NCBI GenBank assembly: GCA_016124755.1
Contig: WGNA01000002.1
Span: 1 to 64,000, forward strand
Direction of reading: 5' to 3'
Origin: Bacteroidota bacterium
Lineage (GTDB): Bacteria; Bacteroidota; Bacteroidia; NS11-12g; UBA9320
DNA length: 64,000 bases
In this document: positions 219 to 28,321 of the stretch, in pieces
Layout of the letters: every line of letters begins with the position of its first letter
How positions within the stretch are numbered: position 1 is the stretch's first letter
Notes under the pieces: generated by a model
What the model was told of the DNA's origin: nothing
Database searches by the model: none
Seen by the model: the letters and a program-made list of their open reading frames with translations, nothing else
Translations under genes and position numbers: made by a program

Positions 219-1469
219 TCATTCTATGTCCTCTTCCAGATATTCCACCTTTTTCCTTGCATAAAGAAGTTTGGTAACCTTAAGATGTAGCGCCGTGTAA
301 TTCTGTGCACTTACAGATAGATTATTCTTTGCATAATTTGTTAGTGATTGCTGGAATTCCACACTAAAGCCTAATCCACTCTTGTTCTGACCACTGAAAG
401 CTACCAATAACCCAACGTTCCATTGGTTAACCAGATTCTTACTAATCAGATTACTGTTGCGTTCCGGGTTGCCATATTCAGTACTGCCGGTTGAATTAAT
501 TCCGGAATAATTATCTCCTTTTACCGACCAGAGTTTTGAAAATTGTGGCCCGAATGACAGACCGAAATTTCCATTTCCCAAATGAACCAATAAAGGTGCA
601 CTCAGATAATTAATATTTGAAATTACCATGCTGTCGCTGGATTTAACACCGCTGACGTTTTGGGTTTCCACATGACTTATTGGTCTGATTGCAATTGCAT
701 TATAGTTCAGTTGAGCTTGTAGTCCGGAATTTAGTCCAAAACAATTGACACCTCCCAATAACCCACCGGATATTGTTTTCGGACTTCCCGGTAGCAGAGG
801 CATAAGCTGCATTCCTATATGTACGCCCAAATAAGAATGTATGCTAACCGACTTCTCCGGCATATGATACCCCTCTTCTTCACTAGTTTGAATATCCAAC
901 TCAGATCCAGAATTGGGTCTCATGTGGAATGGCTGTCTTGATAAGGTGTCGGTGGTCCGGGTAATTTCTTCAACTTCATCTTCCTTTCGTTTCATTCCGG
1001 ATTTGACCGCCACTGCACTTTGATGCGTTTTTCTTTTCAGATTATCTTCCTGCTTTGTTCTTAAATATCTGGCGGTGTTATCATATTCATTCTGATCTGA
1101 AAGATACTTTGTCTCAGTAAAATCTCGATTTGCAGACTGTTCTGGTTTTTCTCCCAGTGCCAGTCGGTTATTCGAATTTATTTCTTCAGAATAAGCAGAT
1201 TCAACTCCGAACAAGGAATTGCCTCTATTTAGCCCATGTTGACCTTTACTCATACTGTAAATTAATACGCAGGAAGAGACGATCATAAAGCCGACAATTC
1301 CATTCAACGTTATTAAATACCTGAGACCGGAAACAGGAGTTTTACCCGCTTGAACCGGCGCTGCTTCAATCATCTGATTCATTTTCTCCCATGCTTCGTT
1401 CACAGGGGGAATTTCAACCTGAGTGATTTTGTCTTTTAAAACTTCAATATATTTAGGGGTATCGCTCAT
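219..1469 (-). CDS. Membrane-anchored, beta-barrel-like partner of the ECF sigma factor
   Basis: This 416-residue protein starts one base after the stop of the upstream ECF sigma gene, so the two are surely co-transcribed. Residues 1-50 are soluble and would be cytoplasmic. Residues 51-72 form one hydrophobic segment, 75-205 are a polar, charged linker, and about 212-405 alternate polar and hydrophobic residues with many Gly and aromatics, like the PorT-type outer-membrane beta-barrel domain common in Bacteroidota. Position suggests an anti-sigma factor or sensor, but no recognisable anti-sigma motif is visible. The architecture would place an inner-membrane anchor and an outer-membrane-like domain in one chain. 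A hairpin terminator follows the gene. Confidence 0.7.
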   Translation of the reverse strand: MSDTPKYIEVLKDKITQVEIPPVNEAWEKMNQMIEAAPVQAGKTPVSGLRYLITLNGIVGFMIVSSCVLIYSMSKGQHGLNRGNSLFGVESAYSEEINSNNRLALGEKPEQSANRDFTETKYLSDQNEYDNTARYLRTKQEDNLKRKTHQSAVAVKSGMKRKEDEVEEITRTTDTLSRQPFHMRPNSGSELDIQTSEEEGYHMPEKSVSIHSYLGVHIGMQLMPLLPGSPKTISGGLLGGVNCFGLNSGLQAQLNYNAIAIRPISHVETQNVSGVKSSDSMVISNINYLSAPLLVHLGNGNFGLSFGPQFSKLWSVKGDNYSGINSTGSTEYGNPERNSNLISKNLVNQWNVGLLVAFSGQNKSGLGFSVEFQQSLTNYAKNNLSVSAQNYTALHLKVTKLLYARKKVEYLEEDIE

Positions 1470-23832: not shown

Positions 23833-25011
23833 ATGAGCAAAGGACTTGTTGTTGTTGGATTATCAGGTGGTGTGGATTCATCTGTTGCCGCCGCATTGCT
23901 TCTCGAAGACGGCTATGATGTAATTGGCGTCTTTATGAAAAACTGGCACGATACGGAAGTTACGATTTCTGATGAGTGCCCTTGGGAAGAAGACAGCAAG
24001 GATGCTTTGTTAGTCGCGGAAAAACTTGGAATCCCTTTCCAAACTATTGACCTCAGTGATTTATACAAAGTGCGGATTGTAGACTATATGTTCCGTGAAT
24101 ATGAACACGGCAGAACCCCGAACCCGGATGTGTTGTGCAACAGGGAAATTAAATTCGACGTCTTTTTAAAAACAGCACTTGAACTCGGGGCAGATTATAT
24201 CGCGACCGGACATTATTGCCAAAAAGAAGAAACAGTTATTGATTGCAAACCAATTTACCGATTGATTGGCGGGGTCGATAAAAATAAAGATCAGAGTTAT
24301 TTTTTGTGTCAGGTAAATCAGGAGCAGCTTTCAAAAGCTTTATTTCCAATTGGTCATCTCAGGAAATCTGAGGTACGGCAAATTGCCGCAAAATATGATT
24401 TGATAACCGCAGGAAAGCGCGATTCCCAGGGGTTGTGTTTCATTGGAAAAGTAAGACTTCCCGATTTTCTTCAACAACAACTCAAACCAAAAGAAGGAGA
24501 TATAATCGAAATATCTTCCGATCATCCCATCTTCAATTTGAATGAAAAAACAACCTTGTCTGAATTGGCTCAACCTTTTTTATTGAGTCGGGAAATGGGT
24601 AAGGTGATCGGCAAACATTCGGGAGCACATTATTTTACCAATGGGCAGAGAAAAGGTCTTGGTGTCGGAGGTAAAGCGGAACCCCTTTTTATTCTGCAGA
24701 CGGATGTAAATGAGAACATCATTTATGTTGGAATGGGCGAAAATCATCCGGGCCTCTTTCGGTCTGCCCTGTTTATGAATACTTCTGAAATCCATTGGTT
24801 GAGACAAGACTTTGCACCGGGTGAAGGAAATTCGTTGCCGGTTTTCGCACGTATCCGATATCGTCAGGAACTTCAAAAAGCTACATTAATTCAAGAGTCT
24901 GACGGTGCATTTCTGCTCTTTGACACTCCGCAAAAATCTGTGACTCCCGGACAATTCGCCGCCTGGTATATTGATGATGAAATGATTGGAAGCGGAGTAA
25001 TTTCGGCGTGA
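23833..25011 (+). CDS. mnmA: tRNA 2-thiouridylase
   Basis: A 392-residue enzyme that thiolates U34 of Glu, Gln and Lys tRNAs. The ATP-pyrophosphatase loop GLSGGVDSS is at 9-17. The catalytic cysteines are Cys102 ([13 protein letters not shown]) and Cys202 (DSQGLCFIG), matching the family's disulfide pair. The C-terminal beta-barrel domains are complete. It converges on the next gene with a 3-base gap. No clear -7 box is seen close to the start. Confidence 0.96.
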
Positions 25012-25014
25012 CCA

Positions 25015-25842
25015 TCAGTCGAAAATATATCCGAAACGGATGTCAAAACTGTTGTAAAAGACTTTCTCCTTAACAAAAACATCCCGGATTCGGTCGTCGA
25101 AAATCTGATCCCAATATTCTGCTGACATCAATTGACGTGTCATTCCAATCGAAAAAAACCGGGTTGAATGTGGTCTTGTTTTTTTCATGAATCCAATTCC
25201 GAAACCGGTATTTAATCCACCTTTCGCAGTACCATTCAACCATCGGATATACTCCGAAAAACTTAGAATCCCATAACCGGATCTCACATAGAAGAAAGGA
25301 GTTTTACCTTCTTTTCTCAATCGGTAATCATACTCCAGACAGATCGGAGTAAAGGCATTATCGGGGAAAAAATAATAATGATAACCGACAGAAGCCGACA
25401 ACAAGTGTTGTGATCTAAATGTCCTGCCGATACTTAATTCGCCTCCGGGAACCAGTGATAAGTCTCCCCACGAATCCAGTCGCCATCCGGTTGAAAGATT
25501 CATCTTAAGAAAAAATCCTTTGTCTGCCATCGGGTATAATTTCTTTCTCTCAACCAAAACCGTTTTAGCCCCGTTTGAAGTTGATGGTGAGAAATCTATT
25601 TCCTGAATATCATCCCATTGAATCTTCATGAAGGTTCCCATTGGGGTGTATATCTCCACATACTCGTTTTGAACATATTCGTGCACCACTCCTTTCACCT
25701 GCAATCCCGATTTCATTTTAATGCGAACAACAGAATCACTCTGCTGAGCATTCGAAGGGCAACTAAATCCCAGAAGCAGGAAGAAAAAAAAGAAATGAAA
25801 CAAAATTGAGAATCGTCGGTATCCGGGCGTATTCCTAAGCAT
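25015..25842 (-). CDS. Secreted protein, probable outer-membrane barrel
   Basis: A 275-residue protein with a long hydrophobic signal sequence (about 12-32) ending SNAQQ. Residues 33-90 read like a small beta domain (VRIKMKSGLQVKGVVHEYVQNEYVEIYTPMG fragment, quoted only to show the alternating pattern), and 110-275 have strand-rich features with terminal aromatic FGYIFD, typical of outer-membrane barrels. The start at 25842 fits the signal peptide; the longer frame would overlap the divergent gene. No family name can be assigned. Confidence 0.65.
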   Translation of the reverse strand: MLRNTPGYRRFSILFHFFFFFLLLGFSCPSNAQQSDSVVRIKMKSGLQVKGVVHEYVQNEYVEIYTPMGTFMKIQWDDIQEIDFSPSTSNGAKTVLVERKKLYPMADKGFFLKMNLSTGWRLDSWGDLSLVPGGELSIGRTFRSQHLLSASVGYHYYFFPDNAFTPICLEYDYRLRKEGKTPFFYVRSGYGILSFSEYIRWLNGTAKGGLNTGFGIGFMKKTRPHSTRFFSIGMTRQLMSAEYWDQIFDDRIRDVFVKEKVFYNSFDIRFGYIFD

Positions 25843-25872
25843 TAGCTTTGAATATTTGATTCCGGTAAAGTT

Positions 25873-27099
25873 ATGAAAAAGGTTCTTGGACATCGGGCTT
25901 GTTTACTAATCACTGTCAGTAGTATTTCGGCCATCTTTTCTTCCTGCAATACCCATTGCCGCCAAACCAGAAGATATGTTGCGAATGTGCCGGTGTATGA
26001 ATCATTGACAGACATCCGGAATTCCATCAAAATTCAATCTTCGGTTTCTTTGGAGAATCCGGGTAAAATCAACCAATACGGAGACCTGTTGTTCATCATT
26101 GAAAAAGAGAAAGGGATTCATGTTGTCGACAATTCCAATCCTTCTTCTCCTGTCTTTAAGAAATTCATTTCCATGCACGCCTGCCACGATATTGCAACCG
26201 GCAATGGTTTGTTGTATGTAGATCAGGGGCCCGATATAGTAGCATTCGACATCAGCGACATCGATCAGATTCAGGTTGTTGGAAGAAGTGAGAAAGTAAT
26301 TTTTTCTGACCAGTTAAAGGGCGACTCCTTTCCGGTTTCATTTATTGAAAAGGAAATTGAAGAAGTGATTGATAATGGAGATTGCGGTGGAAGTAACGGG
26401 CGTATTTTTGAAGACTTCGTTGCCGTTCCGGAAATGTCAGGCGGCGGAACATCTGGTTCAACTTCCAGAATGATTTTCGACAACAACCGACTCTTTGTTG
26501 TCGACAATTCTACCATCTTTTTCTTCGATTTGGCGAATCCCCACAAGCCGGTTAAAGTTTCGTCACAGATTATTACAAACGGACTTGAGACGGTGTATCT
26601 GCACCAGGATCTTTTCTTTATTGGAAGTCAGTTTGGGATGTTCATTATGAAAATTCAAAATCAGCAGCTTCAACAGGTGAGTGGAGTTTTTCATTCACGC
26701 GGATGTGATCCTGTGGTGGTTCAAAACAATCGGGCGTATGTTACATTAAGGGGAAGTAACACTTGTGGTTCTGCACTAAACTCACTTGAGGTTATAGACA
26801 TCTCAAACCCGACAAGCCCCAACGTGATTGCTCAGCATTTTTTAACAGAACCATTCGGACTGGCAGTTAAAGATTCGTTGCTTGTAATCTGTGATGGAAG
26901 CGGAGGCGTCAGAATTTTTGACTCGAGAAATGATTTGGCAATTCTGCAAAATCAATTTTCTGTTTGCCAGGTCGGAAATGCTTTTGATGTTATCCTATCC
27001 GGAAAGCGGATGTTGGTGACTTCAGATAAAGGAATATTTCAATTTGATATAAGCGACCCTAAAAAACCTGATCAGATAAGTACGCTGTTTTCGAAATAA
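25873..27099 (+). CDS. LVIVD-repeat beta-propeller lipoprotein
   Basis: A 408-residue protein beginning with a lipoprotein-type signal sequence; the candidate lipidated cysteine is Cys25 in FSSC. From about 60 to 400 it contains repeats with the LVIVD pattern, for example GIHVVDNSNPSSPVF, SLEVIDISNPTSPNVI and GIFQFDISDPKKPDQI, which form beta-propeller blades. Such proteins are surface or periplasmic and of unknown function. Its stop codon lies at the 3' end of the antisense non-coding RNA that fills the next gap. Confidence 0.8.
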   Translation: MKKVLGHRACLLITVSSISAIFSSCNTHCRQTRRYVANVPVYESLTDIRNSIKIQSSVSLENPGKINQYGDLLFIIEKEKGIHVVDNSNPSSPVFKKFISMHACHDIATGNGLLYVDQGPDIVAFDISDIDQIQVVGRSEKVIFSDQLKGDSFPVSFIEKEIEEVIDNGDCGGSNGRIFEDFVAVPEMSGGGTSGSTSRMIFDNNRLFVVDNSTIFFFDLANPHKPVKVSSQIITNGLETVYLHQDLFFIGSQFGMFIMKIQNQQLQQVSGVFHSRGCDPVVVQNNRAYVTLRGSNTCGSALNSLEVIDISNPTSPNVIAQHFLTEPFGLAVKDSLLVICDGSGGVRIFDSRNDLAILQNQFSVCQVGNAFDVILSGKRMLVTSDKGIFQFDISDPKKPDQISTLFSK

Positions 27100-27277
27100 A
27101 AAAATAGGGCGTGATCGTTGAAAAATCCCTAAAAAAAATAGGATTTGGCCTCCAGTCTGTCGCAACCTTCCCCCGTTCGGTAATCCTCTTCAGCAATGCT
27201 GATAGGGCCTGGTTTTGACCAACCGGTTCAGCCGGTATTGTTAAAGTGTTGAATTTTTCAATTTATCTCAACGCCCT
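27099..27277 (-). ncRNA. Structured small RNA, possibly 6S-like
   Basis: On the minus strand a transcript of about 178 bases can be delimited. A perfect -7 box precedes it (27282-27289). Its 5' end GGGCGT (27276-27271) pairs with ACGCCC (27112-27107) at the 3' end, followed by a T run (complement of the A run at 27098-27104). Inside, a 10-base stem pairs 27253-27262 with 27117-27126, and hairpins ACCGG/CCGGT (27222-27236) and TCAGC/GCTGA (27190-27202) sit in the middle. No open frame fits. Length, end-to-end pairing and free-standing transcription resemble 6S RNA, but sequence identity to it cannot be shown. SRP RNA is unlikely, as its conserved GGAA loop is absent. Confidence 0.6.
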
Positions 27278-27281
27278 GGGT

Positions 27282-27289
27282 CAAAGATA
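27282..27289 (-). promoter_or_regulatory. -7 promoter box of the small RNA
   Basis: The minus strand reads TATCTTTG, a perfect TAnnTTTG match, placing the start at about 27276-27277, exactly where the closing stem of the RNA begins. Confidence 0.65.
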
Positions 27290-27325
27290 TGGTAATCAAC
27301 ACCGGATGTACAAGCCCGGAGAAAT

Positions 27326-27333
27326 TATTTTTG
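27326..27333 (+). promoter_or_regulatory. -7 promoter box of the glycosyltransferase gene
   Basis: TATTTTTG matches TAnnTTTG and ends only 4 bases before the ATG at 27338, so transcription should start at the start codon. It is divergent from the small-RNA promoter 37 bases away. Confidence 0.65.
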
Positions 27334-27337
27334 AATC

Positions 27338-28321
27338 ATGTCTGAAAATCCGTTGATCAGCATCATTCTTCCCTTTAAAGATGAGGAGAAATTTATTTCC
27401 GAATGTTTGTCTTCCATCGTTAAACAGACCTTTACCAACTGGGAAGCGATTGTGATAAACGACCATTCTGTAGATTCCAGTCCCAATATCGTCGGGCAAT
27501 TTTCCAGATCAGATAGTCGCATTAAACTGATACAGAATAATGGTAAAGGGGTGATTGAAGCGATGAATACTGGACTGGAAATTTCACGTGGTAAGTTCAT
27601 CACACGAATGGATGCAGACGATATCAAAATGCCCGATAACCTGGAATCAATGTACAGGTTGATCAATGACAACGCAATCGTTTTGGGTAAGGTAAAATAT
27701 TTCAGATCCGACGGTTTGCGTGACGGATACCGGCAATATGGAGACTGGATGAATGACACCAATACATCAGGCAAAACATGGAAAAATGTGTATCGGGAAT
27801 GTACCGTTCCTTCGCCTTGCTGGCTTACATCCAAAGAAAATCTGATGGCTGCCGGAGGTTTCAACAGTCCGTTTTATCCCGAAGACTATGATTTGTGTTT
27901 TCGGTTTTACAAATTGGGACTTGAACCCAAATGCACTTCCGAAATAATACACCTTTGGCGGGATCATGAATACCGAACTACCCGTGTTTCGGAGTGGTAC
28001 TCAGACAATCGATTTACCGATCTCAAGATTCATTACTTTCTGGATATCGATTTTAACCCCAGGGATGAATTACTCCTTTGGGGAGCCGGTAAAAAAGCCA
28101 AACGAATTGCTTCTGTTTTAGTGAAAAAGAAAATTACTTTTCGATGGATGACAAACAATCTGAACAAAGTGAATAAGGAAATCTATGGAGTAATGATTGA
28201 GAATTCCGAAGGATTTAATCCAAATCAAACACAACAAATACTTGTGGCCATTTCCGGGTTTGAAAATGAACCCGAATCGCAAAATATAATCACACGCGAT
28301 AAAACCTATGTGTTCTGCTAA
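27338..28321 (+). CDS. Family 2 glycosyltransferase with extra C-terminal domain
   Basis: A 327-residue protein. Residues 5-230 are a GT2 catalytic domain: ISIILPFKDEEKFI at 8-21, VINDHSVDSS at 39-48, the DXD-type motif MDADD at 91-95 and PEDYDLCFRF near 180. It would transfer a sugar from a nucleotide donor to an unknown acceptor. Residues 245-327 form a separate small domain that begins LLLWGAGKKAKRIA, a Rossmann-like glycine-rich start. No polysaccharide cluster surrounds it. The stop overlaps the end of the opposing phosphoesterase gene by 4 bases. Confidence 0.88.
   Translation: MSENPLISIILPFKDEEKFISECLSSIVKQTFTNWEAIVINDHSVDSSPNIVGQFSRSDSRIKLIQNNGKGVIEAMNTGLEISRGKFITRMDADDIKMPDNLESMYRLINDNAIVLGKVKYFRSDGLRDGYRQYGDWMNDTNTSGKTWKNVYRECTVPSPCWLTSKENLMAAGGFNSPFYPEDYDLCFRFYKLGLEPKCTSEIIHLWRDHEYRTTRVSEWYSDNRFTDLKIHYFLDIDFNPRDELLLWGAGKKAKRIASVLVKKKITFRWMTNNLNKVNKEIYGVMIENSEGFNPNQTQQILVAISGFENEPESQNIITRDKTYVFC

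Follow-up and report, generated by a model that had tools for sequence, protein, structure and literature searches.

The window considered here, a 64,000-nt stretch of DNA from an uncultured Bacteroidota lineage, carries a structured RNA element on the minus strand between two plus-strand genes. One of these codes for an LVIVD-repeat protein and ends at position 27099, the other codes for a family 2 glycosyltransferase and starts at 27338, so that the RNA indeed lies opposite to its neighbors, as the original prediction had it. Overlap with a protein gene, which that prediction named as an objection to be checked, is not seen: no open reading frame of at least 60 amino acids covers the RNA, and the nearest ones end at 27099 or begin from 27296 onward. 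Many members of the same family share the gene order glycosyltransferase–6S RNA–mnmA (23833-28321; loci L062-L077), and mnmA and the RNA often converge directly there; in the window, the LVIVD-repeat gene and a minus-strand gene at 25015-25893 (no Pfam family) are found between the RNA and mnmA.

The elements of the locus are listed in Table 1. TAnnTTTG is the Bacteroidota sigma-A consensus for the -7 box, and the box preceding the RNA reads CAAAGATA on the plus strand. In Flavobacterium psychrophilum, this motif sits at -12 to -5 (PMC9723704), which places the transcript start at approximately 27277; with the end taken within the T run, a minus-strand RNA of ~180 nt (27277 to ~27098) is predicted. 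The ends of this RNA pair as stem P1 (ACGCCC with GGGCGT in plus-strand letters), a perfect helix of 7 bp if the flanking base is counted, beyond which the plus strand is A-rich, giving the T run on the minus strand. The second long-range stem, P1b, had been described as a 10-base helix; the stem is real, but its perfect pairs number nine, the tenth being G-U. The other elements named at the outset, including the -7 box, the end pairing just before the T run, and the internal perfect hairpin TCAGCA/TGCTGA, are all in place. The minus-strand fold (-54.3 kcal/mol) is more stable than those of shuffled sequences (-42.2 +/- 3.9 kcal/mol; z = -3.13), none of 200 shuffles being as good. Folding energy alone is a poor test, since the single-sequence folds of two distant homologs show no significant stability.

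Table 1. Features of the predicted 6S RNA gene in the window (n, number of aligned sequences; R1 and R2, covariance models described in the text)
Feature	Position	Strand	Observations
-7 box TATCTTTG	27282..27289	-	Exact TAnnTTTG in 29/59 relatives, 12-18 nt upstream of the first stem
6S RNA, predicted transcript of ~180 nt	27098..27277	-	R1 27276-27107, 135.5 bits, E 3.8e-32; R2 134.3 bits (window sequence belongs to both training sets)
P1, 5' arm GGGCGU	27271..27276	-	100% paired, 3 pairs doubly changed (n=16); 6/6 doubly changed (n=59)
P1, 3' arm ACGCCC	27107..27112	-	Covariation (n=16 and n=59)
P1b, 5' arm UUGAAAAAU	27253..27261	-	9 perfect pairs; near-invariant in the order; 8/9 pairs change on both sides class-wide
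P1b, 3' arm AUUUUUCAA	27118..27126	-	Pairing and class-wide covariation
Central bubble, 5' strand CAACACUUUAACAAUACC	27234..27251	-	Sequence conserved; no covarying partner found
Central bubble, 3' strand AAAUCCUAUUUUUUUUAGGG	27127..27146	-	Conserved
P2, 5' arm GGCU, above the bubble	27230..27233	-	99% paired; 4/4 pairs doubly changed (n=59)
P2, 3' arm GGCC	27147..27150	-	Covariation (n=59)
P5, 5' arm AACC	27211..27214	-	Top covarying helix among all possible ones (n=16)
P5, 3' arm GGUU	27164..27167	-	Covariation (n=16 and n=59)
Apical hairpin UCAGC-AUU-GCUGA	27190..27202	-	Differs among relatives
T run past P1, taken as terminator	27098..27106	-	Nearly all homologs of the order have a T-rich tract past P1

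At gathering scores, Rfam reports just one tRNA in the window and nothing at the RNA locus. In a permissive search, 6S-Flavo (RF01685; 25.1 bits, E 0.28, cut-off 85) gives the highest-ranking match in the region, and Bacteroidales-1 (RF01693; 13.6 bits, cut-off 60) aligns from its first to its last model position at 27276-27097, exactly between the promoter and the T run. The Rfam covariance-model check suggested with the original prediction thus returns end-to-end matches to both families, each below a gathering cut-off that is a curated score limit for models seeded from two orders and not a biological criterion of 6S RNA; such sub-threshold matches are leads rather than proof. The general 6S model (RF00013) has no match anywhere in the genome at E <= 1, and the genome outside the locus contains no 6S-Flavo match, no above-cut-off Bacteroidales-1 match, and no other 6S candidate. 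Matches to Atu_At1, sucA, CRISPR-DR57, and sR4 in the region (E ~5-8) were set aside as chance. In locus L091, a sub-threshold match to Acido-Lenti-1 RNA (617-662, minus strand; 30.7 of 37 bits) lies near the 6S locus.

The DNA of the RNA locus has conserved counterparts in 19 of 39 related genomes, the strongest copies extending from the -7 box through the T run. In an alignment of 16 copies, which had linkers trimmed by eye and was not fitted to any structure, 97.8% of the cells are paired, and the covariation score is 0.324, versus 0.137 in shuffled alignments and at most 0.091 with the partners slid. When all possible helices are considered in this alignment, the two strongest covarying ones are P5 (AACC/GGUU) and the end stem P1. 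Within the order, P1b hardly varies and therefore speaks neither for nor against pairing. In a model-based alignment of 59 sequences, ranging from this order to flavobacterial loci, 96.4% of the cells are paired, both sides have changed in 23 of 25 pairs, and the covariation score is 0.588 (shuffled, 0.207; slid, at most 0.098), values that are favored by the alignment being fitted to the model structure; an effect this large, together with the result from the unfitted alignment, makes an artifact unlikely. In this wider set, P1b covaries as well, and compensatory changes, the proposed check on the long-range stems, are present in both of them (6 of 6 pairs in P1, 8 of 9 in P1b). When the full sequences were aligned with MAFFT, the stem at the 5' end was put in the wrong place, and P1 then went undetected by RNAalifold; both problems were cured by linker trimming and, subsequently, model alignment. 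A hairpin CCUA...UAGG in the 3' strand of the bubble was rejected as a conserved element, its covariation being at the shuffled level.

Copies of this RNA bearing compensatory changes exist in dozens of related genomes, so the pattern is more than chance. Covarying helices on both sides of a bubble whose strands have no covarying partner correspond to the 6S plan. An exact TAnnTTTG at the distance given in Table 1 is expected in a mean of 0.24 of the 59 relatives after shuffling; in this order alone, it is found in 21 of 29 (shuffled, 0.15). With the promoter motif, the paired ends, and the T run all conserved among relatives, the element appears, at the sequence level, to be the stand-alone unit that was originally proposed, with a promoter and terminator of its own and a length within the range of ~160-200 nt.

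The relationship to accepted 6S families was assessed with R1, a covariance model made from the copies of this order only, with no Rfam sequence used; the E-values of this model and of the second home-made model, R2, are rough. R1 finds 10 of the 17 loci retrieved with the 6S-Flavo model, in each case in place, with matching strand and complete length, at E-values from 2.6e-16 to 8.8e-6; these include L112 (E 2.4e-9), L113, L109, L114, and the above-cut-off locus L107 (E 8.8e-6). The Bacteroidales-1 locus L140, itself above the cut-off, is matched by R1 as well (E 1.9e-6), with place and strand agreeing and the model covered in full. Of the 8 Bacteroidales-1 loci above the cut-off, R1 on its own recovers 3 in place, including weak matches to L139 (E 0.017) and L135 (E 0.044); R2, the training set of which includes 6S-Flavo loci, matches all 8. 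In the reverse direction, the 6S-Flavo model independently, if weakly, matches the ortholog in genome G001 (E 7e-4) and the R1 loci in G234, G302, G269, and G158, and Bacteroidales-1 matches the R1 loci in G130 and G223. The two Rfam models coincide with each other in G254 and G127.

Among 108 genomes of the order, R1 has matches at E <= 0.1 in 49, of which 46 are at E 1e-18 or better. There is nearly always one copy per genome, and the source genome carries one; 6S RNA commonly occurs in one or two copies per genome. Two matches each are seen in G180 (C3:61123-61298 and C7:46672-46848) and G151 (C37:11970-12146 and C93:5487-5670), possibly representing paralogs as in Bacillus subtilis, or else assembly duplication or contamination. 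Of 247 genomes sampled evenly across the class, R1 matches 38, and R2, which was seeded from the present locus, matches 68 at E <= 0.01, versus 2 + 8 = 10 for 6S-Flavo and Bacteroidales-1 together at the Rfam cut-offs. With such a difference in reach between Rfam and R2, many genomes are likely annotated as lacking 6S RNA despite carrying one. In several near-complete genomes of the order's second family (f2; G023-G025, G028-G031, and G033-G038), R2 with relaxed filters detects no convincing copy, so the RNA has apparently been lost or has strongly diverged in that part of the family; other genera of f2 do have a 6S match. Weak R2 matches beyond the class but within the phylum (G450:C1:2769563-2769739, E 3e-5; G457:C45:78598-78772, E 2e-4) are possibly 6S RNAs of another class.

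The R1 homology, the two-way coincidence of matches, and the joint covariation all support the 6S guess of the original prediction, and the locus can be assigned with high confidence to a single-copy 6S RNA gene (the ssrS equivalent) of this uncultured lineage, with the promoter-mimic function expected by homology. It is a divergent, Rfam-invisible member of a known RNA family, not a new class, and 6S copies from these orders may already appear in an earlier survey (Wehner et al. 2014). A sigma-A-type promoter of its own would drive the minus-strand RNA, in which P1/P1b and the apical arm (P2, P5, and above) enclose the conserved central bubble of ~18 + 20 nt. By homology, this RNA would be expressed, occupy the active site of RNA polymerase in its sigma-A holoenzyme form by mimicking an open promoter, and inhibit or store the polymerase as growth slows. 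Release is expected when the polymerase copies the 5' strand of the bubble, the presumed template side, into a short pRNA that perhaps begins near 27251 with the sequence GAAUUUUUCAA...; that UUGAAAAAUUC is near-invariant in the order would fit a template for the first pRNA bases, although this is speculation.

Descent from 6S RNA does not by itself fix the mode of action. Ms1 of actinobacteria binds the core polymerase, and a similar mode, or a 6S RNA with no pRNA release, might be considered for a sequence that has drifted far below the Rfam cut-offs in a lineage where the 6S function is predicted. This is improbable, as the bubble and stems are conserved and heavily covarying across the span from this lineage to the type seen in Flavobacteriales and Bacteroidales, and pRNAs have been detected along with 6S RNA in Bacteroides thetaiotaomicron (PMC7366714); 6S RNA has also been detected in Flavobacterium psychrophilum (PMC9723704).

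Even less probable is an unrelated trans-acting small RNA that came to share the closed-ring shape through convergence. The individual Rfam scores are weak, as such a scenario would have it, but R1, a model trained on neither family, recovers genuine 6S-Flavo loci and one Bacteroidales-1 locus, with place, strand, and full length in agreement. The vicinity of mnmA and the glycosyltransferase gene in many relatives might suggest a cis-regulatory leader or antisense element of the adjoining genes; this is the least credible of the alternatives, because the T run coincides with the stop codon of the LVIVD gene that converges on the RNA, both neighbors in the window are on the other strand, the RNA has its own conserved promoter, and no mnmA or glycosyltransferase neighbor was found within 1.5 kb in other families of the class.

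For the 6S RNA assignment, the wider meaning lies in the role of this RNA as a global transcription regulator, one that would shut down the main RNA polymerase by posing as an open promoter. With moderate confidence, 6S-Flavo, Bacteroidales-1, and many unannotated lineages can be joined in a single Bacteroidota 6S superfamily, with a bubble adapted to TAnnTTTG instead of TATAAT and the apparent loss in part of f2 noted above. The joint alignment across orders provides a solid structure and allows a test of whether the unusual promoter of Bacteroidota is what 6S RNA imitates, and the locus is useful for the annotation and comparative study of Bacteroidota 6S RNA. A -7-box mimic (UAnnUUU) was sought by eye in the 3' strand of the bubble, which is too U-rich for one to be claimed.

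Among known systems, the window RNA resembles 6S-Flavo in that R1 lands on the same coordinates at 6S-Flavo loci, the stem order is the same, and the motifs UCAACAC... and CAAA-(U/A)-C are found in the 5' and 3' strands of the bubble, respectively. It differs in having a longer apical arm (the part of the RNA covered by the model is 170 nt, versus ~140 nt for the flavobacterial loci that were matched) and a P1b of UUGAAAAAU instead of the AAACUC type. With Bacteroidales-1, suggested to be 6S-Bacteroidales, it shares a similar length, the paired ends, the T run, and the AUACCG and CUCAAAUCuUGU-type bubble motifs, whereas most stem sequences have been replaced. The paired ends, central bubble, apical arm, and stand-alone gene are features common to the E. 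coli and B. subtilis 6S RNAs (RF00013, SsrS), but the promoter to be imitated in Bacteroidota is TAnnTTTG, not TATAAT.
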